From IMG/VR virus record IMGVR_UViG_3300028654_000501, positions 1 through 26,269 of that record: a DNA stretch of 26,269 nt. The stretch is one strand, 5' to 3'. The translations under genes and the position numbers were made by a program. The notes under the pieces were generated by a model. It had not been told where the DNA came from. It was given only the letters and a program-made list of their open reading frames with translations, and did no database searches. Shown here piece by piece: positions 2,183 to 24,132 of the stretch. The stretch's first letter is position 1; the number at the start of each line of letters is the position of its first letter. The DNA comes from a virus.

Positions 2183-4175
2183 TCAAGGTGACTCCTGTCT
2201 GTTCATAGCCTGGGAGGTATTTATTCTTGTAAGGATGCCTGATTACTACAATCTTATTATCAAAGAGCCAAGGGATCTTGAACGATAATCCGCTCACGCG
2301 ATCATTATCGGGAGAATAGTCCTCGAGAGCAAGGCCGGCAGTCACCGTCATAGGTCCGTCTGCCCATGCCCCAGGTGAGTTCCATGTGGCAAGATCGGTG
2401 AGCGCGCGGGCTAGATCAGGGAGATGGACTACACCGTGCTCGTCGGTCCAATCGACGGGGCTCGCGGTCTTTAATAGTTGGTTGGCCACATCAACCCAAC
2501 TGTGATGTGCACTGTCGTAAGGATACACCCCGACCGTTACGGTCAGCGTTATCCACGCCTTTTTTACCATGTCTTGCGCCGAGGCGGGATTGTCGGTGTA
2601 GGATTGCTTACTCGGATGAGTACCCGGTACAACCGTGACAAGCCCTGTCTCGTAATCGACCACTGGAGCGTCTTCGTCAGGTATATCAACGCATGAAAGC
2701 GTCATCTCGTTGTCGTCGCCTACTGTGGAGAACTTGACGGAGCTCAATAAAACCAAGAACGCATGATGAGTCTCCTTTGGTTGATAGAAACTACCAACTG
2801 TGTCGAGTATACGATACCTACTCACGAACAACACCGTCGTCATGGGATTTATGAGCTGCCTGAACGGACAGCGGATTATCCTCAAGCCAGACATCGTTAT
2901 ATCGTAGACCGCCGCGAGCTTAAGCACCTTGCCGTTCTTCTGCCGCTCTTTTATCACCGGGTCCTTGAAGAGGCCCTTGGTGCTCTGGCTCGTCTTATAA
3001 ACAAACAGTGAACCATCCAACGACATATACCAGCGGATATAATTGAAGTGGTTCTTGATGGCATTGAGCTGCGATTCTAGCGTCTCGTGCGCCTCATCGA
3101 ACAACTGAAATCCAGCATTGAGATCCTGGAATGCGGAGGCTATCTTCTGCACCTGAGCAGCAACTTGCTTATTCGATTGCGCGAGGTTAGGCTGAAACAC
3201 GCCATACTTGGGTATGTCGGCGACGCTCGTCATGGAACTAAGCTCTTCCGAGCAGGACACCGGGACTCCCAGGAACCCGGCGTCGAACGGAGTCAAGAGA
3301 CCATCACCATCGGGAATAAGTTTCGTCCACTGTTTGTCTGGCTTCATCGCCTTACCTACGAGATAATTATAATTCCATACCAATATCTGCACATCATCGA
3401 CGATAATGTCATCCGTCAATTTTATGTGGGTAACCTGTACCAAATGCTCGATGCCAGGCCTGATGAACCTCCGCGTTATCCACTGATAGAACATCATCCC
3501 TATCTTCGACATGCCCTTGGGGAAATTATTATTATTATACCCTGGCACTAGATCGTCTTTGGTATGGCTCCACGGTATGCCCGTATCCAAGTGCGCCACA
3601 GTGCCCACAAAAACCCACTCACGATCGGGTGGATTATTCTCAGGATAACAGTTGAGTATCTGCACAATGAGCTGTTTACCCGACAGCATCCCTCCGAAGC
3701 CGTCCAACGAGTCATTGTCCATGTCATAAAATGCATCAACGTCACTCGCGCCCGCTACCTTGTCCCATCTCGGAAACTCGTCTATATAGCCGAGCTGCAC
3801 GACCGCAGACATGATGGGATTCTCCGCAGCGGAGTCTATCCTCTCGTCCGCCACTTCACGATCGATAAAGAGTCCCGTGATTCTTATCTGGACACTAATC
3901 GCTATCGTATCGGCGACTTGATTATAGGTTATCGTTATCGCGGGCGGAAAAGAGCACCTGACGAACTGCACCGTACCATCGCTGTGATAAACTGGCTCAT
4001 AGTCACTGCGAATGCAGAAGCTCCTATCTCCGTTCTTGTCCGCGTATTTTCGAATGAACTTTACATTTATGATCCTACCAAACATAAGCGAGCTCTCAGG
4101 AGAATTGACGAGCTCCTTTCCCTCTACTATCTGAGAGGCGCTTGCGAGGCTATCGATGCCCCTCGTATCATTCAT
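2175..4175 (-). CDS. Putative baseplate hub protein (gp27/gpD-like)
   Basis: I start this 666-aa protein at ATG 4175, which overlaps the preceding gene by 8 bases. A GTG at 4241 would overlap it by 74 bases and add an atypical N-terminus. Early residues (an N-x-V-A-D-T-I-A-I-S-V-Q-I pattern, then VQLGYID and VFVGTVAHLDTGI) resemble the first hub domain, which defines a tube-like ring and its field of action. The middle third has a helical, coiled-coil-like segment (LAQSNKQVAAQVQKIASAFQ). The C-terminal part (ITMSGLRIIRCPFRQLINP, a VSRYRILDTVGSFYQ stretch, then HHAFLV) matches the hub pattern in which a test function is evaluated against reference coordinates. Hubs form the trimeric base that docks the tube and spike, and the spike gene follows directly. 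Confidence 0.6.
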   Translation of the reverse strand: MNDTRGIDSLASASQIVEGKELVNSPESSLMFGRIINVKFIRKYADKNGDRSFCIRSDYEPVYHSDGTVQFVRCSFPPAITITYNQVADTIAISVQIRITGLFIDREVADERIDSAAENPIMSAVVQLGYIDEFPRWDKVAGASDVDAFYDMDNDSLDGFGGMLSGKQLIVQILNCYPENNPPDREWVFVGTVAHLDTGIPWSHTKDDLVPGYNNNNFPKGMSKIGMMFYQWITRRFIRPGIEHLVQVTHIKLTDDIIVDDVQILVWNYNYLVGKAMKPDKQWTKLIPDGDGLLTPFDAGFLGVPVSCSEELSSMTSVADIPKYGVFQPNLAQSNKQVAAQVQKIASAFQDLNAGFQLFDEAHETLESQLNAIKNHFNYIRWYMSLDGSLFVYKTSQSTKGLFKDPVIKERQKNGKVLKLAAVYDITMSGLRIIRCPFRQLINPMTTVLFVSRYRILDTVGSFYQPKETHHAFLVLLSSVKFSTVGDDNEMTLSCVDIPDEDAPVVDYETGLVTVVPGTHPSKQSYTDNPASAQDMVKKAWITLTVTVGVYPYDSAHHSWVDVANQLLKTASPVDWTDEHGVVHLPDLARALTDLATWNSPGAWADGPMTVTAGLALEDYSPDNDRVSGLSFKIPWLFDNKIVVIRHPYKNKYLPGYEQTGVTLNG

Positions 4176-4479
4176 AAAGATCCACCACGCAGCTTTGCAT
4201 ATTCGAACTCGATAAAAGGAGCCCAAGCAGAGAAGAATCACTCGTGGTCACGGCGACGTTTTCGTCCCCGAGCCCTATGACGAGGGAGCCGAACTTTTCC
4301 GCGACGAGCCTACTTGACGTGTCGAATGTCTGTATATCGCAAATCATCCTCGCCACTCGCGCGCTCGAGGGACCAGACTCGTAGGTCTCGTCGATTATGG
4401 TGAAAATTGCACTCTTAAGGCCGTAGTTTACTGTATAAACGCCGTTCGTGAAGAGGCTCGGTACCAGGGTGAACTTCAT
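4168..4479 (-). CDS. Small baseplate or tail protein, possibly a plug
   Basis: The product has 103 aa. ATG 4479 overlaps the previous gene's stop as TAAATG and has GGAGG 7 bases upstream, so it is a real, translationally coupled gene. The sequence is beta-rich with small residues (FGSLVIGLGDENVAV) and has no signal peptide or obvious membrane helix. Its place between a Dit-like protein and the hub is where simple contractile phages encode small baseplate plug or LysM-type proteins. I see no LysM motif. The plug idea is a guess from position and size. Confidence 0.75.
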   Translation of the reverse strand: MKFTLVPSLFTNGVYTVNYGLKSAIFTIIDETYESGPSSARVARMICDIQTFDTSSRLVAEKFGSLVIGLGDENVAVTTSDSSLLGLLLSSSNMQSCVVDLYE

Positions 4480-5325
4480 TTAGTTTCCTCCAAATTGGCC
4501 GAACTGATCGACCCCGGTTATTCGATCGAGCACCGTAGAGAGCGGGGTGAGGAACGACGACGGCATCTTTATCGTCGCGCCGCCCTGTGGCTTATTGACG
4601 CAGAGCACCGGCATCTCCTGTACCCGTAGAGATCCGCGGAACACATCGTCCTCTTTCGGCTCCTTTGAGATATCCATGTCGGAAATCATAACGAACTCGT
4701 AGTACATCCCCGTCCACATTTTCATCACGAGAAAGTGGGATCTTTTCCACATGGTCTCCAGGGATATCTTATTCACATACGATAGACCGTCGGTATTCGG
4801 AAGCTGGAGCGCTGTCTGAACCGCCTCATTCGCTGTAGCGACTCTATTTTTATATACACTGCTTACGAAGTTCGCTATCTGGTCGTGGAGCGGCGTTGCG
4901 CCGAGCATATAGGCGAACGTGTCGATGGCGCCGGAAAAAGCAGAAGCAAAGTCCATCATGCCCCTATCAATCGGGGTGAAGGGGAGCACCACGTCGAGCG
5001 TGTACTGCTTTGGATCTCGTACCGCATTGTCAGTGATGGCGCGCAAGACTGAGGGACGGATCTGCTGTGCGTGTGCCTCCGCCGAAATATTTTCCTGCGG
5101 CTCGTAGAGAATAACTCTCTTCGTGGATATGTTTGTTTTACCGATCTCGTGCATCTTCGTCACCCGGAACATGGCTATGGGGAGTGTAATGACTCCCTGG
5201 TCCGGAGCCCAGTTCACGTCGTATAGGCAGGTGAGACTCGTGATATAACGCAAGAGATCAGAGGAGGTTTGAATGAGCGTCGGGATTATTATTCCCGAAG
5301 CATTGCCACTAAGCGGTCCACCCAT
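4480..5325 (-). CDS. Dit-like baseplate/tail protein
   Basis: The product is 281 aa. ATG 5325 has AGGAG with a 6-base spacer. The N-terminal third has a KRVILYEPQENISAEAHAQQIRP stretch followed by YTLDVVLPF, and the C-terminal third has YEFVMISDMDISKEPKED followed by GSLRVQEMPVL. This 'label, then describe, then target' beta pattern ending in an EM/EIR-like strand is typical of Dit-like domains that form the ring joining tube and baseplate. The central part is helical and poorly defined. It lies directly after the tape measure gene, where Dit-like genes normally sit. Assignment is by resemblance and gene order, so a generic baseplate wedge protein remains possible. Confidence 0.6.
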   Translation of the reverse strand: MGGPLSGNASGIIIPTLIQTSSDLLRYITSLTCLYDVNWAPDQGVITLPIAMFRVTKMHEIGKTNISTKRVILYEPQENISAEAHAQQIRPSVLRAITDNAVRDPKQYTLDVVLPFTPIDRGMMDFASAFSGAIDTFAYMLGATPLHDQIANFVSSVYKNRVATANEAVQTALQLPNTDGLSYVNKISLETMWKRSHFLVMKMWTGMYYEFVMISDMDISKEPKEDDVFRGSLRVQEMPVLCVNKPQGGATIKMPSSFLTPLSTVLDRITGVDQFGQFGGN

Positions 5326-5334
5326 ATAAATCTC

Positions 5335-7770
5335 CTATTTACTGGAGGCTTTTTGTAAATTAAACCCACCGAGCGCGGCATTTATTATATTGTTCTCGTT
5401 GTCGCGGTTAATGGTGAAACTTCGCACTAGATTACCCGCGTCCTGGTCATTGAGTTCAGTCTGAGCCAAGATCTTCCCGTGGTCCATCAGGTCCACTATA
5501 ACCTGAAAAGTCCCTCCGGCGCCAGGTGCTCCTATTTTATTGAATTCAACTTGATAGCCCTTACTTATGGCATCAATGAGGCTTGTGACACCGAGACTCT
5601 TGTTACTAGCCAAATCTAGTCCTACTTTTCCTATAAGTTCGTAAACGTCAGCAGAGCTTATGAGCCTCTCTTGTAAATCGGAGCGCATTTTCCTTCCAGC
5701 CGGAGTATCGCCTGCACCATTCGCCGATCTCAGGGCATTCGCATCCAGGTAAGCTTCCACGGCGGGGTCTAGATAAACCGGCTTATGCCCAGGGAGACTT
5801 TCCAAATCTTTCTTATTTTGCGCGAGTATAGCGGCAGCCACGAGCGCCGTTACCTGCATCTGTCCTAATATACCCATCGTCATACTCGCCTGAGACAGAG
5901 AATCATTGGCATGCGTGGCGTTGGTATAGACTACAAGCCTCGTACCGTCTTTCGTGGTAGCGGTTCCTAAATCACGTATTGCTCGAAGCGTGTCCGAGTA
6001 AGCCCCTATGTCGCCAAAGAAATCAGCATCAGTTATCGCCTTGGCAAAGTTCTCGAATGTCATACCTATCTTCTTGTAGTCCTGACTTCTAATAAGAGAT
6101 TGCAATTCATCAGGTCTGTCCTCCCATCCTGGGGCGGCACCATACAGTGCTAGTTTTTTAGCGAGAGCTGCTCGCTCTACAGGGGCATTGACGCCTGCTA
6201 ACCTGTTCGCATCCAAGTTAGAGGCCACGTTTCTCAATTCCTCGTGCTCGACCCACGAAGGGAAAAACCTCTTTGCTATCTCAGATCGGGCTATCCACCC
6301 ACGAAAATCCTCTATCCACTGTCCCGTATTCCCCACTATCTGTCGGAGTAGCGTCTCCGCGACGGACATTATGGAAGTACCCGCGCCTCGGAATCTATTA
6401 CCCGTTTCCACATCTGCATGGGTCGTAGCCGGAGGTGTCAGAAGAGATTTCGGTACATCGGGATTATTGGTATAAAAATCACTGGGAGGCATATAGTTGC
6501 CACTGCCCACCTTATCGCGCTTCTCGTACCAATAATTGTATAGAGTATCACCCGCCTGCCCACCGAGAGCCTCAGTGAATAAGCCGGCGTTGACGGCATA
6601 GGCCTTATCTGGAGTTGTCACCGGAAGACCAGGTGCTATGCCGGCTTCACTAGACTTCACTATACTTTTTATCATGATATCGAAGACACCAAGAGCATTT
6701 TGATCCCCGCCAGCTTTAACCATATCAACTAACTTGGCGGTATCTATACCGAGAATGGGCGCGAGTTTATTCCATGGAGCGTTGTCAAACGCAAGAGGAC
6801 TAGCGAAATTTGACATAATAGCGCCTATGGCACCGGGAAACATATTCTTATCGTAGCCCTTCGATGACGCTATTTTTTCCCAAGACTGCATAGTGCCAGG
6901 AGCAAAATTATACCTCTGGTCACCGAGAGCCTGCCTTCTTGCGTTACTAACGATATCTACTATGCCTTCACGTATTTTACCAAGTAGCACTACCGTGGCA
7001 GTCATTTTAGCGACAAGTAATCCAATCTCCGTTGATATACCGGAGAGCACGTATTTTCCCATTTTACCTGACGTACCACCACTCTCTTCTTTTATTGCAT
7101 CATCATCAGGATGCTCTTTGGCATATTGCTTTTTATAGCCAACCATCCGCGATCGTCGAGCGAGAGCGGCATAGGCTATAGATCGCTCATCAGACAATGA
7201 AACATCACCTATATCCCCCTCAGCACCTCCATTAACAAGTACCTCACCCAATGTCTTTTTGTATTTCTGTTCGGAGTTCGATATCTTGCCCCAAATGACG
7301 CGATTCAAGTTTTTATCATCGAAGTTAATTGAGGTACCGATGCCCCACTCCACGGCGCTTCCTTTGCCTTGAGAAAAATATCCACCATTCTGTCGAACGA
7401 GATTAGCAATTTCCGCTCGAGTACGAGGATCATGTATATTGCTCGTATGAACCCTAAATCCATTGTCCGAAGCAGAAGAGATATCTATACCGAGACTACT
7501 CTTACGGCGCCTATCACTAACTCGCGCGAACTCTTCTTCGACGGTTTTCTTGATGATCGGAAGGTGCTGGGAGGGCACAAAATAATCCGTAATGCGAATA
7601 TTCCCTTGTATGCTCCGCTGCGTCCTGAGCACTTTGTCGCTCTCGGATTGGAATTGACTCACGACCTGCCGCAGGAAGCTCTCGAAGCTCTTCGACATTG
7701 CCACGGCGTCAGGATTTGACATATCCATCGAGTAGCGCAGCGTGCCATACTTGTCGTTGGAACTGGGCAT
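5335..7770 (-). CDS. Tail tape measure protein
   Basis: This 811-aa protein starts at ATG 7770, one base inside the TGA that ends the frameshifted chaperone (TGATG); a GTG at 7773 is an in-frame alternative, and AGAGGAG upstream can serve either. It is the longest late gene and directly follows the tail chaperone pair, the diagnostic place for a tape measure. It has long helical stretches at the N-terminus (SFESFLRQVVSQFQSESDKV) and two hydrophobic segments, around residues 245-270 (IGLLVAKMTATVVLLGKI) and 645-665 (MQVTALVAAAILAQ). Such segments are usual in tape measures, which set tail length and enter the host membrane on DNA delivery. By the common ~0.15 nm per residue rule the tail would be about 120 nm; this is an estimate only. 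No lytic transglycosylase or peptidase motif was recognised. Confidence 0.8.
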   Translation of the reverse strand: MPSSNDKYGTLRYSMDMSNPDAVAMSKSFESFLRQVVSQFQSESDKVLRTQRSIQGNIRITDYFVPSQHLPIIKKTVEEEFARVSDRRRKSSLGIDISSASDNGFRVHTSNIHDPRTRAEIANLVRQNGGYFSQGKGSAVEWGIGTSINFDDKNLNRVIWGKISNSEQKYKKTLGEVLVNGGAEGDIGDVSLSDERSIAYAALARRSRMVGYKKQYAKEHPDDDAIKEESGGTSGKMGKYVLSGISTEIGLLVAKMTATVVLLGKIREGIVDIVSNARRQALGDQRYNFAPGTMQSWEKIASSKGYDKNMFPGAIGAIMSNFASPLAFDNAPWNKLAPILGIDTAKLVDMVKAGGDQNALGVFDIMIKSIVKSSEAGIAPGLPVTTPDKAYAVNAGLFTEALGGQAGDTLYNYWYEKRDKVGSGNYMPPSDFYTNNPDVPKSLLTPPATTHADVETGNRFRGAGTSIMSVAETLLRQIVGNTGQWIEDFRGWIARSEIAKRFFPSWVEHEELRNVASNLDANRLAGVNAPVERAALAKKLALYGAAPGWEDRPDELQSLIRSQDYKKIGMTFENFAKAITDADFFGDIGAYSDTLRAIRDLGTATTKDGTRLVVYTNATHANDSLSQASMTMGILGQMQVTALVAAAILAQNKKDLESLPGHKPVYLDPAVEAYLDANALRSANGAGDTPAGRKMRSDLQERLISSADVYELIGKVGLDLASNKSLGVTSLIDAISKGYQVEFNKIGAPGAGGTFQVIVDLMDHGKILAQTELNDQDAGNLVRSFTINRDNENNIINAALGGFNLQKASSK

Positions 7771-8464: not shown

Positions 8465-8484
8465 AAGTCCTCCTTACAATGGCA

Positions 8485-8515
8485 ATGCGGCCACCCTACT
8501 AAGGGGTGGCCGCAT
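8485..8515 (-). terminator. Hairpin after the tail tube gene, terminator- or processing-like
   Basis: There is a perfect 12-bp inverted repeat, ATGCGGCCACCC with GGGTGGCCGCAT, around a 7-base loop. It is GC-rich and lies between the tube stop (8539) and the SD of chaperone G. Leftward transcripts lack a long U tract after it, so full termination is doubtful. Partial termination or a 3' stabilising/processing stem that raises tube over chaperone is the likelier role. On the opposite strand the stem is followed by ATATTTT. Confidence 0.65.
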
Positions 8516-8538
8516 ATTTTGAACTACTAAATCCTAGG

Positions 8539-9306
8539 TCACGAGGGCCACGTCACCCCGGAGGGAACGACCACGGGATCGAGACCGTCGCCCGCGGCAG
8601 GAGTAGCGCCGTTGTCGATATCTCCGTCGGGAGAATCTACATCGTCGACGCCACCCACTATGCCGCTTTGCACGTTGGAGGCAGAGAAGAGATCACCCTG
8701 GCCAGCCTGGATCGCGTAGGGGCGGTATTTGGCCGAGATCCCGTTCTTGTTACCCACCGCCCAGATCGTCTGCTCGTCCAGGTTGTCAGCACCTACGCCC
8801 TCGAAGAAGCCAGAGTAGAGCATGACGGCCGCGTAGGGCACGATCGCGTTACCTGCGAGGATGAGGTGGGGCACGTTCTGGACGCTCACGCCGTAGAAGA
8901 CGGTGATGATCCGCTTGCCGTTGACCATGCGGATGATGGTCAGCGTCCCCCCAAGTGAGTCCTTGGAGGCGATGATGAGCTGCAAGGCGGCGATGAGGTC
9001 GCCCGAACCCACAAGCCCGGTGGTGCGGAGCACGTTGAGCGTGGCCCGGCCAGCGAGCATGTGGTTCGTGATGGTGATCGTCGAGCCGTCGACGAGCGCC
9101 TCCATCACGGCGCTGTCCTGCAAGGGCACCGCCGAGAAGAAGGTGTCGTTGAGCCGAACGGATTTCGACACATCGATCTCATCGACTGGTGACGCATCGC
9201 TCACCTGGCCGGAGAGGTAGGGGTGCCGAAACTTGATTATGATCCCACCAGAGGTCTGGAACGACGCTCGCTGCTGCGGCGCCGCTCGGTTAGTTCCAAA
9301 AGCCAT
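8539..9306 (-). CDS. Tail tube protein
   Basis: This 255-aa protein starts at ATG 9306, after a purine-rich AAGGGGGG SD. The sequence is beta-rich with little charge clustering: an early IDVSKSVRLNDTFF segment, then ITITNHMLAGRATLNV and GTLTIIRMVNGKRIITVFYGV, as in the single-domain tube proteins that follow sheath genes. The C-terminal ~50 residues are acidic, Gly-rich and probably flexible (VDDVDSPDGDIDNGATPAAG). It would form hexameric rings inside the sheath. The sheath gene lies immediately upstream in transcription and the chaperone gene follows, the classic sheath-tube-chaperone-tape measure order. A hairpin just after the gene suggests high and separately controlled expression. Confidence 0.75.
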   Translation of the reverse strand: MAFGTNRAAPQQRASFQTSGGIIIKFRHPYLSGQVSDASPVDEIDVSKSVRLNDTFFSAVPLQDSAVMEALVDGSTITITNHMLAGRATLNVLRTTGLVGSGDLIAALQLIIASKDSLGGTLTIIRMVNGKRIITVFYGVSVQNVPHLILAGNAIVPYAAVMLYSGFFEGVGADNLDEQTIWAVGNKNGISAKYRPYAIQAGQGDLFSASNVQSGIVGGVDDVDSPDGDIDNGATPAAGDGLDPVVVPSGVTWPS

Positions 9307-13974: not shown

Positions 13975-13995
13975 TTTCTGCCTCCTTGCAGGAAA

Positions 13996-14022
13996 GGGGC
14001 GCCTCAACTATCGAGGCGCCCC
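13996..14022 (-). terminator. Hairpin after the major capsid gene, terminator- or processing-like
   Basis: There is a perfect 10-bp stem, GGGGCGCCTC with GAGGCGCCCC, and a 7-base loop, 11 bases after the capsid stop. On the leftward transcript it is followed by UUUCC, a poor U tract, then the SD of the next gene. It likely attenuates read-through or protects the capsid mRNA 3' end. It matches the hairpin after the tube gene in design. Confidence 0.7.
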
Positions 14023-14032
14023 GATGGATGGA

Positions 14033-15535
14033 TCACTGAACCCCGAAGCCCCGGATGATCTTGATCGTCCCGTCGATGGGGGCGATGACGGAGCCCATGC
14101 GCTTGAGCATGGTTCTCTGGAGCCCGCTACGCTGCGGGAACGAGGGCAGGATGAAATTCTCAATCGCCATGGGAGCGATGACGACTCCCTCCTGGGGATC
14201 GAGGGCGCTCTTGAGCGTCGGGAAGGTGATGAACATAAGGTCGGAGGCGTGATCGTTCCAGGGCGTGTGGGGCGCGCAGAACGGGTCCGAGACGAGGACG
14301 AGCTCCTCGAGGCCACCGTTGTTCGGGCCGAAGCCCACGCCAGTGCCGAATCCGTTCGAGCGAATCATCTCGTAGTCCTTGAACGCGCTCTTGAAAATCT
14401 GCAAGGGGCTCTTGTCCGAGTAGACGTTGGACTGCATAGTCCACTTGAGCGCCTTGTAGACGGTGGGGGAACAGTTGATCCTCACCGAGGAGGGCAGGAA
14501 GGAGAGCTCCTCCTGCATATTGCCGACTTCCCGCTGCAAGGAGGTCACGATCGCGGCGCCCTTGGATACGTCGGTGTCATCGGCCCAGATCGTGTCGGTG
14601 GTGGCACCGCTCCACGTGTCCTCGTTAACGAGCTGCTCGAGACCGTCGAAGCCCGACTCCGCGTCGCCGAAGAGGATGAGCGCGTTCGCGAGCTGCTCGA
14701 GCATGAGCCGCGCGTACCGCTCGCGATCGCCGATGCCCATGGGGGTGAGGAAGTTCCCCGGCTGCCCGGCGACGAGGTTTTCGTGGAAGCTCGTCTCGTA
14801 GTCAACAACGAGGTTGACGAACTGCGACACGAGCATGTCGAATCGGTTGCGGACGCTGGCCGAGTCGTTGAACTCGCCATTGCCCTTGGCCACGCCGGAG
14901 ATCCTCGCGAATCCCTCGAAGGTCTCCTTGTACATGACGATGGCGTCCGCCCAGATGTTGGGGACACCCATCACGTCCACGAGGTTTCTCGCCATGCCCT
15001 GGATGAAGGGCTGCTTGAAGACCCTCGTGGAGTAGGACACGTCCCAGTAGGGCATCGAGAGGTTCGACAACAGGCTATCCTTGGCCCTTCCCGTGGCCAC
15101 TATGGGTTCGCCGATGTACTTTCTGACCTCGGGATCGTAGTGACCGATCCGAGTGAGGCTATCGCGCACGCGCTTTTTGGCCTCTTCCTCAGTCATGCCC
15201 TGGGCGCGAAATGCTCGCTCGGAGATGAGAATCGCTTCCTTGACAGAGTCCGAGACTCGGGTGCCGAAGGTCTCGATGCCCGCCTCGTTCCAGTTCTTGA
15301 CCTGCCGCGCGGTGAGCTGCCGGTCGGGAACCTCGAGATAGCTACCGCCACCCATCGAGGACTCCCCGGTGATGCGGAAGCCGTCTCTCGAGCCTGGGGC
15401 CGCGTCCTTGTTCCGCCCGATGCTGATCCCCCGGACGAAGCCGTCGACGAGGGAAGGGTATTGGGCGCCTAGAAAACTTTCGGCCTTGCGCGCGAAGGAC
15501 GTGAAAGGCTTCGAAGCTTCGATGAATCCGTTCAT
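14033..15535 (-). CDS. Major capsid protein
   Basis: The product is 500 aa. ATG 15535 has AAAGGAG about 7 bases upstream. It lies after the protease/scaffold and cement genes and before the adaptor, which is the major capsid position. The N-terminal ~120 residues contain a helical charged region (EEEAKKRVRDSLTRI) that could be a delta-like domain. Further on, an Asp/Glu-rich helix (LMLEQLANALILFGD) and a domain with SSVRINCSPTVYKALKWTM and LEELVLVSDPFC look like an HK97-fold P/A region; the end (VIAPIDGTIKIIRGFGVQ) is a typical beta strand close. Strong SD, biased codons and the hairpin after it suggest very high expression. A DUF2184-like family is possible. The reverse strand is open for 506 codons only because of codon bias. 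Confidence 0.8.
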   Translation of the reverse strand: MNGFIEASKPFTSFARKAESFLGAQYPSLVDGFVRGISIGRNKDAAPGSRDGFRITGESSMGGGSYLEVPDRQLTARQVKNWNEAGIETFGTRVSDSVKEAILISERAFRAQGMTEEEAKKRVRDSLTRIGHYDPEVRKYIGEPIVATGRAKDSLLSNLSMPYWDVSYSTRVFKQPFIQGMARNLVDVMGVPNIWADAIVMYKETFEGFARISGVAKGNGEFNDSASVRNRFDMLVSQFVNLVVDYETSFHENLVAGQPGNFLTPMGIGDRERYARLMLEQLANALILFGDAESGFDGLEQLVNEDTWSGATTDTIWADDTDVSKGAAIVTSLQREVGNMQEELSFLPSSVRINCSPTVYKALKWTMQSNVYSDKSPLQIFKSAFKDYEMIRSNGFGTGVGFGPNNGGLEELVLVSDPFCAPHTPWNDHASDLMFITFPTLKSALDPQEGVVIAPMAIENFILPSFPQRSGLQRTMLKRMGSVIAPIDGTIKIIRGFGVQ

Positions 15536-19526: not shown

Positions 19527-19555
19527 ATGGTAGGAGTAGTTTACCAATATGTCAA
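19527..19555 (-). promoter_or_regulatory. Possible promoter just before the portal gene
   Basis: TTGACA (19555-19550) and TACCAT (19532-19527) are separated by exactly 17 bases. The predicted start of transcription is at or beside the portal ATG, which would make a nearly leaderless message lacking the AGAGG SD. The -10 matches consensus at only four positions, so this may be chance. Confidence 0.3.
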
Positions 19556-19574: not shown

Positions 19575-20936
19575 CTATCCGACCGCATAGTACCCGGCGC
19601 CCAGCTCCTCGACCCCCGTCTGCTCCTCTTCGATGAGATCAAGCTTCCGGTCGAGCACGAGATGCTTGATATTGAAAAACTCCTTTCTATTGCACACGAT
19701 GAAGAAACACATCATCCTGAGGCCGTCTATGTCATGGATGGGACTGCGAGGCCCCACGCCCTTGGGTATCATTCCCTTATCGTCCCGCTCTCCCCTGGAC
19801 ACCGCATCCGCCGTCTCGGTCGCTCCCCCGGTGATGAGCAGCTTCTGTATATAGAAAAGCTTGTTCACGAGGAACGCGGTATCCTCGACCGATGGGTTCT
19901 TTGAACGCAATACTATCTTGATCTTATTGTGCCTTAGCTCCTTGTAAAAGTGCGTAATCTCATCCTTAGCCGTCGCGTCAGGAATCCAGAATATCCTCTG
20001 AAACGGAAAATCGTGACGTATGACCTTAGGCGCCTCCCTGATATCGGGAAACTCGTACCTTTTGACAATGATGATGACGCCATCCCTGATGACGCCCACG
20101 CAGCCGCGATGGTAGCCCTGGTTGAAGTCCTGCCCCCAGTAGAGCGTCTCGTCATCTCCCACCGATCGATCGAACTCCTCTTTCGTATAGTTCCGGTCCC
20201 AGGAAAAATCAGAGAAGATCTTCCCGCGCGCGATCGCTAGGAACTCACCCTCGAGGTATACGCGCTGCTCGGTCTCAGTGTACAGCGCTGCGAGTTCGTC
20301 GGCGTATCCTGGTGGGTTGTAGATATTATCGCGCGTGCGACCCCTGATCTTTACAAAGCCAGCGCCGGTCTTCTTGAACTGCGTGTAGAGCCTATAGAGC
20401 CCGAGCTGCCCCTGGCTCGTCGACGCCATTGATATGAACGGCATCCTCATGCCGGGTATCTGCTGGCGCACGCGCTCGTTGACCGCCTTGACCGCCTCGA
20501 AGGTCGTATCCTCGGCCGTCGAAATACCCAGATCATCGACCTCGTCTAGGTCCGCCGACCATACATCGAAGCCCATTATTTCTTTGGGGTTCTGCAATGG
20601 AGTCGCAAGCACGTCCACGGTGCCTATGGAGAGCACGCTGTTCTTCGAATCCCATGAGTAATCGGTCTTTGAGTTCTCAAGGTCCTGCACTATGTAGGCG
20701 AGCGTCGTCTTCACAAGATGGCCCAATGTAACGCCGCCTAAGAGAAGCCTGGGCCGGTGGCCTTCTCTATCCTTTCGACCTTGAAGCAGTGAAGCCTTGT
20801 ACTCTATTGAGGTCGCTATTGAGGAAGTCTTTCCCGCGCCATAACCTGCGACGAGTATGTGGAACCGTCTATCGGTAAAAATGAAAGGTGACTGCAAATA
20901 AAGCCCCTGATGAGGCAAAAGAAGCTTTTTTATCAT
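19575..20936 (-). CDS. terL: Terminase large subunit
   Basis: The product is 453 aa, a normal length. ATG 20936 overlaps the preceding gene by 4 bases and has AGAGG upstream. The ATPase has a Walker A-like GYGAGKTS (residues ~31-38), a Walker B-like WSADLDEVDD (~128-137) and a coupling SMASTSQG motif (~168-175). The nuclease half has YWGQDFN (first catalytic Asp, ~268), a WIPDATAKDE segment (~318) and a late HDIDGLR (~415), which fit the three-acid RNaseH-like site. It cuts the concatemer and pumps DNA into the prohead through the portal encoded next. This is the most secure call in the window. Confidence 0.95.
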   Translation of the reverse strand: MIKKLLLPHQGLYLQSPFIFTDRRFHILVAGYGAGKTSSIATSIEYKASLLQGRKDREGHRPRLLLGGVTLGHLVKTTLAYIVQDLENSKTDYSWDSKNSVLSIGTVDVLATPLQNPKEIMGFDVWSADLDEVDDLGISTAEDTTFEAVKAVNERVRQQIPGMRMPFISMASTSQGQLGLYRLYTQFKKTGAGFVKIRGRTRDNIYNPPGYADELAALYTETEQRVYLEGEFLAIARGKIFSDFSWDRNYTKEEFDRSVGDDETLYWGQDFNQGYHRGCVGVIRDGVIIIVKRYEFPDIREAPKVIRHDFPFQRIFWIPDATAKDEITHFYKELRHNKIKIVLRSKNPSVEDTAFLVNKLFYIQKLLITGGATETADAVSRGERDDKGMIPKGVGPRSPIHDIDGLRMMCFFIVCNRKEFFNIKHLVLDRKLDLIEEEQTGVEELGAGYYAVG

Positions 20937-21706
20937 ACATCCTCTACCATGATATCTTCGCCCATCTCGTTTTCCTCATAGTGAAATCCAGCTACGCTTA
21001 CCTCTCGCGAAGTGGTGGCCTTGAGAATCCTGGAGCCGACGGCGATCTTTGCCCCTTGACTCAAGGTTCCCTCGAACTCCGATTTCGCGGCCGTACCCTC
21101 AGATATCTCCACAGTGCTCAGTTTTTCGAATTCCTCTTTCGTGACGGGTATGAAGAAAATATTCATTGCCTCGTCTTCTCTATCTTCACTGCCTTTTTCC
21201 GCATCCATTATCTCTCGACGCTGAGATAGGAGCTTGAGGCGTGTCTCTATCTTTGTCTTGTCGAACTTGACTCGGGGCCTTCCTGGAGGCCTTCCTACTG
21301 GTTTCTTTGCCTTATCGGGTTTCTTGTCTTTCTTTTTTGGCTTCTTTATCGCGCCTCTGATGTCGTATTCATCTATTGGAGGCTGTTCTTCCTCCTGGAT
21401 CTCTTCATCTTCTTCCTCAACATCTTCTCTTTTTGGTTCATTAGCGGCTTTTCTCTCCTCTTCCTCGAGCTCATCTATGCTTGATAGAAGAGTATCTACT
21501 TCTTTGAGGTCCTTTAGTGTCCTCTGGGCCTTGAGCTTCCGCGTCTCACACTGATAGTAGTCATCTTCTAGTATGAGTACCCTCTGTTTTCCAATGATCC
21601 CCAGTGAGTCAAGCGCCGTCGTGTCATTATAGACTACCGAATACGCCTTAACGCACTTTTTCACGAGAGTCAAGAATGCATCGTCTTCGTTTGTGGTTGC
21701 AGCCAT
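20933..21706 (-). CDS. Putative terminase small subunit with AT-hook-like motif
   Basis: I start this 257-aa protein at ATG 21706 (MAATTNEDDAF); the frame extends to a TTG at 21775 that lacks an SD and lies inside the folded leader. No good SD precedes 21706 either, so translation may need the leader. Residues 1-70 are helical (DAFLTLVKKCVKAYSV, LGIIGKQRVLILEDDYYQ). A strongly charged linker with many Glu and Lys follows (EEDEEIQEEEQPPIDE; KKPKKKDKKPDKAKK), then a VGRPPGRPRVKF motif near residue 145, which resembles an AT-hook that binds the minor groove of AT-rich DNA. The C-terminus is beta-rich and acidic. Being directly upstream of terL, it should recognise the packaging site. The family is not recognised by sequence. 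Confidence 0.6.
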   Translation of the reverse strand: MAATTNEDDAFLTLVKKCVKAYSVVYNDTTALDSLGIIGKQRVLILEDDYYQCETRKLKAQRTLKDLKEVDTLLSSIDELEEEERKAANEPKREDVEEEDEEIQEEEQPPIDEYDIRGAIKKPKKKDKKPDKAKKPVGRPPGRPRVKFDKTKIETRLKLLSQRREIMDAEKGSEDREDEAMNIFFIPVTKEEFEKLSTVEISEGTAAKSEFEGTLSQGAKIAVGSRILKATTSREVSVAGFHYEENEMGEDIMVEDV

Positions 21707-21753
21707 TTCATGACTATAGACCCGTATAGCTTTCGCCGTCAAGGTAAAGGTAA

Positions 21754-21846
21754 GCCCACCATGGGTCGCTAGCAAGGAGGACTATCCGAACTAGCCTTTG
21801 CGCGGCGTGAGTGCTGCGTTCTCAGCACACGGCTCCCATGGTGGGC
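21754..21846 (-). ncRNA. Folded 5' leader RNA of the late operon
   Basis: The transcript from the promoter at 21854-21882 would begin almost exactly at this element. A perfect 12-bp closing stem (P1) joins 21846-21835 to 21765-21754. Inside, P2 pairs 21831-21823 with 21816-21812 and 21809-21806 around a 6-base loop with a 2-base bulge. P3 pairs GCAA 21801-21798 with UUGC 21775-21772 and an inner GG-CUA/UAG-CC stem around a 7-base loop. Together they give a three-way junction of about 93 bases. The 3' side of P3 has CCUCCUU, the same as the 16S anti-SD. Possible roles are translational control of the small terminase, a packaging RNA, an RNase or regulator site, or a free small RNA. None is proven; the DNA palindrome could also bind protein. 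Confidence 0.55.
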
Positions 21847-21853
21847 GAATATA

Positions 21854-21882
21854 AATATAAATCATGGTGGGTATTGTGTCAA
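21854..21882 (-). promoter_or_regulatory. Strong sigma70-like promoter for the packaging/late operon
   Basis: A perfect TTGACA (21882-21877), 17-base spacer and TATATT (21859-21854) predict a start near 21847-21846. It lies 150 bases upstream of the small terminase start and reads into the folded leader. A dyad lies 27 bases upstream of the -35 box (21909-21925), suitable for a regulator. Confidence 0.7.
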
Positions 21883-21908
21883 CTGCCTATTTTGTTACTA
21901 TAGAATAA

Positions 21909-21925
21909 CGTGATATTAGTGTCAC
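21909..21925. promoter_or_regulatory. Operator-like dyad, copy 1
   Basis: The sequence CGTGATATTAGTGTCAC is an imperfect dyad and is identical at 14 of 17 positions to the site at 22042-22058. It lies just upstream of the late promoter -35 box. Two similar dyads in one intergenic region suggest a regulator-binding pair. Confidence 0.4.
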
Positions 21926-22086
21926 TATGGTGGAATTTATGCTTTTATGCTCGTGTCGCGCGGGGATCACCGTTCCTACCCCTGCATCGAAGTTTCAAGG
22001 TAACATTCTCACAGACTATTTTATTATTACATTGTCATAACCGTGATATTATAATCACGGCGGCATGGCGTCATATAATCTTTGTA
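21926..22086. other. Rest of the 22087-21707 intergenic region
   Basis: Apart from the dyads, promoter and leader RNA listed separately, this stretch has a locally GC-rich patch (about 21955-21985) in AT-rich surroundings. A 60-codon plus-strand frame has no SD and no likely product. I see no gene here. No U-tract terminator follows the 217-aa gene, so leftward transcripts may run through. Confidence 0.5.
22041..22060. promoter_or_regulatory. Operator-like palindrome, copy 2
   Basis: CCGTGAT and ATCACGG are 7-bp perfect arms around ATTATA. The core is nearly the same as the dyad at 21909-21925. It lies 27 bases past the stop of the 217-aa gene on the minus strand. A TATAAT lies across the centre on both strands, but no good -35 is seen. 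A terminator is less likely because there is no U tract. Confidence 0.45.
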
Positions 22087-22740
22087 TCATGATACATGCT
22101 CCCTTAGCAAATACACAAGCTCGCGAGTAGTTACTCTATCCGCCATTGGGAAATTATGATGTAAATACTTCGCTGCCTTGGCCATTTTCGTCGTCTGGGG
22201 TGTCTTGGCCGACATGATAGCATCGACACTGTACGCGCTATGTACCATGTCACGTATGGATGCCCGTGCCGTCTTTGACAATCGCGTAACGTAGTCGCGT
22301 ATGTATGCATCAATCGCGGCCGATACTAACGTTTCAATACCTATGGCGCTTGATTGTATCGCTCCCTCGATCTCTACGTATAGCGTACCGAGTACCTTAC
22401 CCATGTTCCGCTTGTGCGATTCTCCTTTGCCTCCCTGCGTATCATTAATTCTATTTATTCGCCGAACTTCACGATTGATCGACGCCTCGCCGTGTACCGA
22501 TACTGCGCGGTCTCCGACCTGCTCCGCCTCATATCGCTCGAGTGCGTCAACGATTGTCCTAGTAGTACCACGCCTTACCGAGGCTTTACACGCGCCCACA
22601 ACGTACATACGCGCCGCATCGTCCTCCGATACTGCTCGCTCTTGCGCAATTTTAATCACTTTCGCCGCTTTTTCCGCCCGGAGTATCGCCGCGCATGCGC
22701 CAACACGCGCATCCCATTCCCGTTTTCCCATCCTTTGCAT
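22087..22740 (-). CDS. 217-aa basic helical protein, function unknown
   Basis: ATG 22740 has GGGAGG with a 5-base spacer, so it is preferred to the ATG 3 codons downstream. The protein is rich in Ala, Arg and Lys and mostly helical: a KREWDARVGACAAILRAEKA start, an ERAVSEDDAARMYVVGACKA segment and a C-terminus with HHNFPMADRVTTRELVYLLR. No signal or membrane segment is present. The final 25 residues look like a small helix-turn-helix or adaptor-like domain, which is only a suggestion. It is separated from the late operon by a 380-bp control segment and joined to the 49-aa gene upstream, so it may be a regulator or DNA-binding protein of early or middle expression. Confidence 0.7.
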   Translation of the reverse strand: MQRMGKREWDARVGACAAILRAEKAAKVIKIAQERAVSEDDAARMYVVGACKASVRRGTTRTIVDALERYEAEQVGDRAVSVHGEASINREVRRINRINDTQGGKGESHKRNMGKVLGTLYVEIEGAIQSSAIGIETLVSAAIDAYIRDYVTRLSKTARASIRDMVHSAYSVDAIMSAKTPQTTKMAKAAKYLHHNFPMADRVTTRELVYLLREHVS

Positions 22741-23764: not shown

Positions 23765-23792
23765 AAGGAGCAAAGCCAATGCACAAGCCCAA
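23765..23792 (+). repeat. 28-bp direct repeat, copy 1 (SD and start codon)
   Basis: The stretch covers AAGGAG, the spacer, ATG and the first codons (Met-His-Lys-Pro). It is identical to 24285-24312 at the next gene. It marks the left side of a duplication that includes the translation signal. Confidence 0.85.
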
Positions 23793-24132
23793 TCAGGTCA
23801 TAAAGGCCGACGACGAGTGGGACAAGGCCCGCGCCGAGTGGGAAAAGGCCCTCGCCGAGTGGGACAAGGCCGACATCGAGCTGAACAAGGCCGACGCCGA
23901 GTGGGACAAGGCCGACGACGAGTGGGACAAGGCCCGCGCCGAGTGGTACAAGGCCGACGCCGAGTGGGACAAGGCCCTCGCCGAGCTGAACAAGGCCCGC
24001 GCCGAGTGGTACAAGGCCAGCGCCGAGCTGAACAAGGCCCGCGCCGAGTGGGACAAGGCAGCCGCCGAGTGGTACAAGGCCGACGCCGAGTGGGACAAGG
24101 CCCGCGCCGAGTGGGACAAGGCCCTCGCCTAG
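23779..24132 (+). CDS. Trp/Ala heptad-repeat coiled-coil protein
   Basis: The product is 117 aa, with ATG 23779 after AAGGAG (8-base spacer). After MHKPNQVIKADD it consists of 15 heptads of the form E-(W/L)-(D/Y/N/E)-K-A-x-(A/D/I). With Trp or Leu at position a, Ala at d and Lys/Glu flanking, it should form a regular coiled coil of Trp-zipper type. The underlying DNA is a 21-bp tandem repeat. A TAG at 24130, in place of the GAG seen in every similar heptad, stops it; five more heptads follow in frame to TGA 24250-24252. TAG is an ordinary stop in this genome (sheath, tape measure, cement, 92-aa genes), so this is a true truncation unless suppressed. Flanking duplications suggest it arose from the gene downstream. 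The function is unknown. Confidence 0.7.
   Translation: MHKPNQVIKADDEWDKARAEWEKALAEWDKADIELNKADAEWDKADDEWDKARAEWYKADAEWDKALAELNKARAEWYKASAELNKARAEWDKAAAEWYKADAEWDKARAEWDKALA

Follow-up and report, generated by a model that had tools for sequence, protein, structure and literature searches.

In phage lambda, the late leader consists of pR', 6S RNA and tR', which together give a short terminated transcript. Trans-acting small RNAs encoded by phages exist as well. Published packaging RNAs (pRNAs), of which that of phi29 is the reference here, share right- and left-hand loops that are paired by 3–4 covarying nucleotides (PMC12670572). The locus described below was compared with each of these systems.

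The DNA analyzed (the window) is IMG/VR record IMGVR_UViG_3300028654_000501, a virus record of 26,269 bases (positions 1–26,269) representing a fragment of a phage genome. Because the packaging genes are located on the minus strand, the element under study is to be read as the reverse complement; the first-pass annotation had left this strand unstated, while the inverted repeat and the promoter that it reported are real. From 5′ to 3′, the minus strand carries a gene at 22740–22087, a cos-like motif (~21990–21953), a promoter P1, a 93-nt stem element, a spacer, a second promoter P2, terS and terL. The terL gene (19575–20936, minus) matched phrog_2 with an E-value of 8.2e-18. The putative terS (20933–21706, minus; ATG at 21706) adjoins terL and can be called a small terminase from this position only: Pfam and PHROGs gave no terminase match, and assignment to a known fold was rejected following fold comparison, which yielded no significant similarity. 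Elsewhere in the window, an ORF at 23779–24132 (plus) consists nearly entirely of heptad repeats (EWDKARA-like) and is open in more than one frame.

Relatives of the terS region were collected using several queries. Only four contigs were obtained with terL; a portal profile gave 27 loci and a capsid profile one more, the group-A portal profile and the capsid profile adding only L063. Bacterial genomes held no close relatives, and neither did named phages when queried with terS, with the upstream gene (22087–22740) or at the DNA level; a search using the upstream gene as query returned nothing. In the portal tree, the window grouped with L002, L005 and L004 (support 100/99). L004 begins inside terL and is uninformative for the element region, leaving L002 and L005 as the two nearest phages holding it. 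The terL gene of L005 contains a long in-frame insert (3333–5855) that appears intein-like, with a second, homing-endonuclease-like ORF inside it in another frame. A DNA pattern of the paired stem arms, searched in viral contigs, was matched only by L006. This phage is unrelated, the arms enclose a simple hairpin in it, and the match was taken as chance.

Scanning both strands of the 26-kb window for promoters yielded a single match of at least 11/12. This promoter, P1 (21854–21882, minus), reads TTGACA-17-TATATT, with boxes at 21882–21877 and 21859–21854. Its predicted start (21847/21846) falls on the opening base of a perfect 12-bp stem, in agreement with the first-pass annotation. The arms of this inverted repeat, GCCCACCATGGG on the 5′ side (21835–21846, minus) and CCCATGGTGGGC on the 3′ side (21754–21765, minus), are separated by 69 nt. 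When the intergenic region was subjected to dinucleotide shuffling, a 12-bp repeat arose in 5 of 2000 cases. The stem would close a putative noncoding RNA of 93 nt (21754–21846, minus), for which a fold z-score of −4.05 was obtained, compared with −3.80 for the plus strand and −0.62 for the 69 nt between the arms alone. With the plus strand folding nearly as well, the fold does not settle the strand. The two inner hairpins can be drawn by folding but are no better than chance, so that the three-way junction described earlier rests on the 12-bp stem. The evidence for the element is this closing stem together with its promoter. The anti-Shine–Dalgarno (anti-SD)-like segment CCUCCUU, complementary to SD sites, is indeed present at 21780–21774 (minus). 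Between the stem and P2, an 11-nt spacer (TTACCTTTACC; 21743–21753, minus) forms a weak U-tract, and an RNA started at P1 may therefore read through into terS.

P2 (21713–21742, minus), located between the stem and the terS ATG, had been overlooked; of the earlier promoter picture, P1 stands. P2 reads TTGACG-18-TATAGT, and transcription from it is predicted to begin at the A of the ATG (21706). The terS start carries no SD of its own, as had been noticed before, whereas most other genes in the window have one. With the start of P2 on the ATG, terS looks leaderless, which explains the absent SD. A −10 box located 6–9 nt before the terS ATG, with a promoter score of 8–11 out of 12, was found in 13 loci, comprising the window and 12 relatives (L002, L005, L013, L016, L017, L018, L020, L021, L024, L026, L028 and L029). 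The first ATGs of 228 ORFs in the same 13 loci, terS among them, were scored, and only 17 reached at least 9. For L063, a promoter of the same type was recognized by eye at the terS start. In a more distant group (L023, L025, L030–L032, L035 and L036), terS is preceded by an SD leader instead. Across much of the clade, terS thus looks to be read from leaderless mRNA, judging from these start regions. A leaderless terS does not need the upstream element as its leader, and as the packaging genes have P2 as their own promoter, the RNA is probably not their leader either. This promoter, which lies downstream of the element and is common to much of the clade, weakens the earlier suggestion that the element is a leader regulating the packaging operon in cis. 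A further promoter, TTGACA-17-TACCAT (19527–19555, minus), ends 7 nt ahead of the portal ATG (19519); the portal mRNA may also be leaderless.

At the place of the element, L002, L005 and L024 carry a promoter, ∼80–140 nt, a terminator-like hairpin and then the next promoter. P1, P2, the stem, this layout and its recurrence in the three phages are established from the sequences. In L002, ∼86 nt separate the promoter (4123–4151) from a 12-bp terminator hairpin with TTTTATATAG, after which comes P2. L005 has two tandem units (2112–2284 and 2288–2413) ahead of P2, and L024, from another branch, has one unit closed by a long stem resembling that of the window. Fold z-scores were −4.9 for L002, −3.8 and −5.2 for L005 and −2.6 for L024; the part before the terminator alone gave −3.66 in the first L005 unit and −2.78 in L002. 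The distance from the hairpin end to the next −35 box is 11 nt in the window, 10 nt in L002 and in the first L005 unit, 9 nt in L024 and 42 nt in the second L005 unit. By this matching spacing, the window stem, with its 3′ arm, stands at the position of the terminator of the relatives. The intrinsic terminator is good in L002 and L005; in the window, the U-tract after the 12-bp stem is poor. The RNA sequences of the window, L002, L005 and L024 units are unrelated and could not be aligned. The layout recurs and the sequence does not, which does not show that the RNAs of these units share a function across the clade. No comparable unit was seen beside terS in L003, L013, L016, L017, L018, L020, L021 and L022; in L026, a promoter-like site and a terminator precede a small ORF, at a greater distance upstream.

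A promoter followed by a terminator before late genes, as found in L002, L005 and L024, is the arrangement of lambda pR'-tR'. Accordingly, P1 could be a late promoter and the hairpin a terminator that requires an antiterminator or activator to be passed, read-through then transcribing the packaging operon. The promoter, short RNA and terminator of these three phages lie directly before the packaging genes, and an RNA of unconserved sequence is what would be expected if termination alone mattered. P2, however, comes after the terminator and would feed terS regardless of termination; the stem of the window itself has a weak U-tract, and no antiterminator gene was identified in the window, which is a fragment. 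An attenuated late leader is thus considered a serious but unlikely explanation.

The recurrence pattern also bears on the proposed analogy to phi29 pRNA. Like a pRNA gene, the element has its own promoter beside packaging genes, and a stem around two hairpins can be drawn. Related terL and terS genes are nevertheless present in L003, L013, L016, L017, L018 and L020–L022, where no unit was seen beside terS, and in the terS neighborhoods examined, phages with a terL 55–60% identical to that of L002 have no such unit. The terL gene (phrog_2) indicates a TerL-type motor, and the inner hairpins are at chance level (z −0.62). Loop pairing carries no weight either way here, since a match of 3–4 nt between the loops of one sequence is expected by chance. 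The Rfam search that the first-pass annotation had proposed was carried out and gave no match for the element, either at the gathering threshold or at E-values up to 10. A packaging RNA is therefore highly improbable here.

A different explanation places the function in the DNA. CCACCAT occurs five times in the 26 kb (both strands), and four of these copies lie within 21756–21933, at 21756 (plus) and at 21838, 21864 and 21927 (minus). Two are part of the stem arms, one is located in the P1 spacer (21864–21870, minus) and one (21927–21933, minus) upstream of a further promoter-like site (21925–21897). Boxes clustered in this way suggest a site for protein binding. TerS or a late regulator would bind to them, the stem arms included, as an operator or cosB-like site, and the RNA pairing would be a by-product of two facing boxes, although such a site may coexist with an RNA. 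An extra 9-nt copy of the stem arm, found in only 11 of 2000 shuffles, points the same way, as do a fold that does not favor the RNA strand and the cos-like motif with direct repeats just upstream in relatives. Boxes alone fit less well with arms that are perfect over 12 bp and a promoter that starts at their first base, or with L002 and L005, in which the same place is taken by hairpins of unrelated sequence with U-tracts and no CCACCAT boxes. We judge a purely DNA-level element unlikely.

The cos-like motif, around CGCGCG(A)TTTTC, is found between the upstream gene and terS in the window (~21953–21990), L002 (~4000–4030) and L005 (~1890–1920), and also in L013, L018, L020, L022 and L024. In several phages it is followed by direct repeats of 20–56 nt. 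In the window, near-palindromes CGTGATATTA(G/T)(T/A)(G/A)TCAC flank it on either side, at 21909–21925 and 22042–22058. The upstream gene (22087–22740, minus) encodes a conserved helical protein with homologues in L002, L005, L013, L016, L017, L018 and L022. No significant family or fold match was obtained for this protein; many of its weak fold matches were to sigma factors (E-values of 0.7 and above), and a weak sequence match was to FliA. Some phage late regulators resemble sigma factors, and the protein is a possible late regulator.

In eight more distant loci, a small RNA gene was found on the opposite strand, divergent from terS. Its members, each on the minus strand of its contig, are L023:3821-3908, L028:3851-3938, L029:3179-3273, L030:1293-1370, L031:488-584, L032:549-631, L035:2213-2309 and L036:3877-3964. 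They consist of a promoter-like −10 box, a first hairpin, an invariant unpaired UCUUUUCCUU, a terminator hairpin and a U-tract. UCUUUUCCUU is identical in all eight and its extended form CUCUUUUCCUU in seven, and the terminator hairpin changes in sequence while its pairing is kept. Fold z-scores ranged from −3.5 to −6.0. A sequence profile of the family recovered each member with an E-value of 1e-8 or below, scores that are not independent evidence, as the profile was built from those sequences. The profile scores sequence only, its consensus fold containing no pairs and the changing arms not being aligned. Counting pairs on the alignment for a 4-bp helix drawn by hand did not support it, as the arms are out of register. 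The family had no Rfam match, and its profile found no comparable copy in the group of the window. With an invariant unpaired segment between hairpins of changing sequence, it stands out as a clear candidate new family of phage sRNAs and is a stronger result than the window element itself.

In the 25-kb contig of L023, the complement of the invariant segment, AAGGAAAAGAG, has three copies, one at the sRNA and one in the SD of each of two structural genes. These are X, which follows the capsid gene, and Y, which precedes the presumed tape measure gene; tblastn identified the homologues of both in the window. When the window RNA was compared with the SDs of 26 gene starts, the longest complementarity was to Y (10 nt; 8466–8475, minus), followed by X (9 nt; 13981–13989, minus), the next best being 7 nt. 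Y and X thus rank first both for the window RNA and, independently, for the L023 sRNA. Complementarity of at least 9 nt to both was obtained with 1 of 5000 shuffled RNAs and 32 of 19,777 random contig segments. These matches are only suggestive, since that to Y had been seen before L023 was examined and AAGGAGG SDs occur in the window at X and Y only; both sites are weak candidate targets. The match to Y and X was not repeated in L002, L005, L024, L029 and L030. The idea that all units share a generic anti-SD seed was not supported, L002, L005 and L024 having no special SD match. In the window (~8478–8540 and 13985–14035, minus) and in several relatives, Y and X each have a strong SD and begin immediately downstream of a terminator-like hairpin.

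Taken together, the element is probably a separate short noncoding transcription unit rather than the leader of terS. This reading draws on the start of P1 at the stem, the separate P2, the layout in L002, L005 (twice) and L024, and the spacing of 9–11 nt in four units out of five. That such a unit exists and its RNA also acts in trans in some way is plausible, at slightly under an even chance for the two combined. Counted against both are the poor U-tract of the window, RNAs that cannot be aligned across the clade, the unrepeated SD match and the CCACCAT repeats, which suggest a DNA role. Among the three functions offered by the first-pass annotation, a stable small RNA fits best, as the relatives hold a promoter, a structured RNA, a terminator and then a separate terS promoter.

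Transcription of the RNA, its termination beyond the stem and its mode of action are inferred as follows. P1 would give rise to an untranslated RNA of ∼93–105 nt, whose 5′ end, locked in the 12-bp stem, would be protected from decay. The 3′ arm of the stem lies at the terminator position of the relatives, directly ahead of P2, and P2 would independently give the leaderless terS-terL mRNA. As a trans-acting sRNA, the RNA would pair through CCUCCUU with SDs on a few mRNAs of late structural genes, Y and X being the best candidates, and lower their translation. Such SD pairing is the likeliest mode of action but a tentative proposal that, taken by itself, we hold to be rather doubtful. More speculative still, and improbable in our view, is that sRNA genes of unrelated sequence, located on one strand or the other, have repeatedly been placed by phages of this clade beside a terS promoter that is mostly leaderless, damping translation of late structural genes via SD pairing. 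Such an arrangement, of which no description was found, would be a timing device between assembly and packaging. In the open-licence literature, no paper describing an RNA at this place was found. If real, the element would extend packaging control in a clade of uncultured phages by a small RNA gene and by a terminase mRNA that is leaderless, and it makes concrete predictions, namely two RNA starts and two target genes.

In comparison with known systems, phi29 pRNA is alike in being a short RNA gene beside packaging genes for which a stem around two hairpins can be drawn, whereas the window element has no Rfam match, lies beside genes for a TerL-type motor, is missing in related phages and has a junction not above chance. 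Like the lambda late leader, the element would give a short terminated transcript from a promoter of its own immediately ahead of late genes; unlike in lambda, the packaging gene here has its own leaderless promoter past the hairpin, and no antiterminator was identified in the window. Compared with the trans-acting sRNAs of phages, the window RNA is a prediction from sequence, its targets are candidates and its sequence is not conserved in the nearest phages. In its predicted form it nevertheless resembles them in being a short untranslated RNA with its own promoter P1, separate from the downstream gene promoter P2, with a 5′ end held in a stem, a terminator-like 3′ stem and an unpaired CU-rich segment capable of pairing with SDs.
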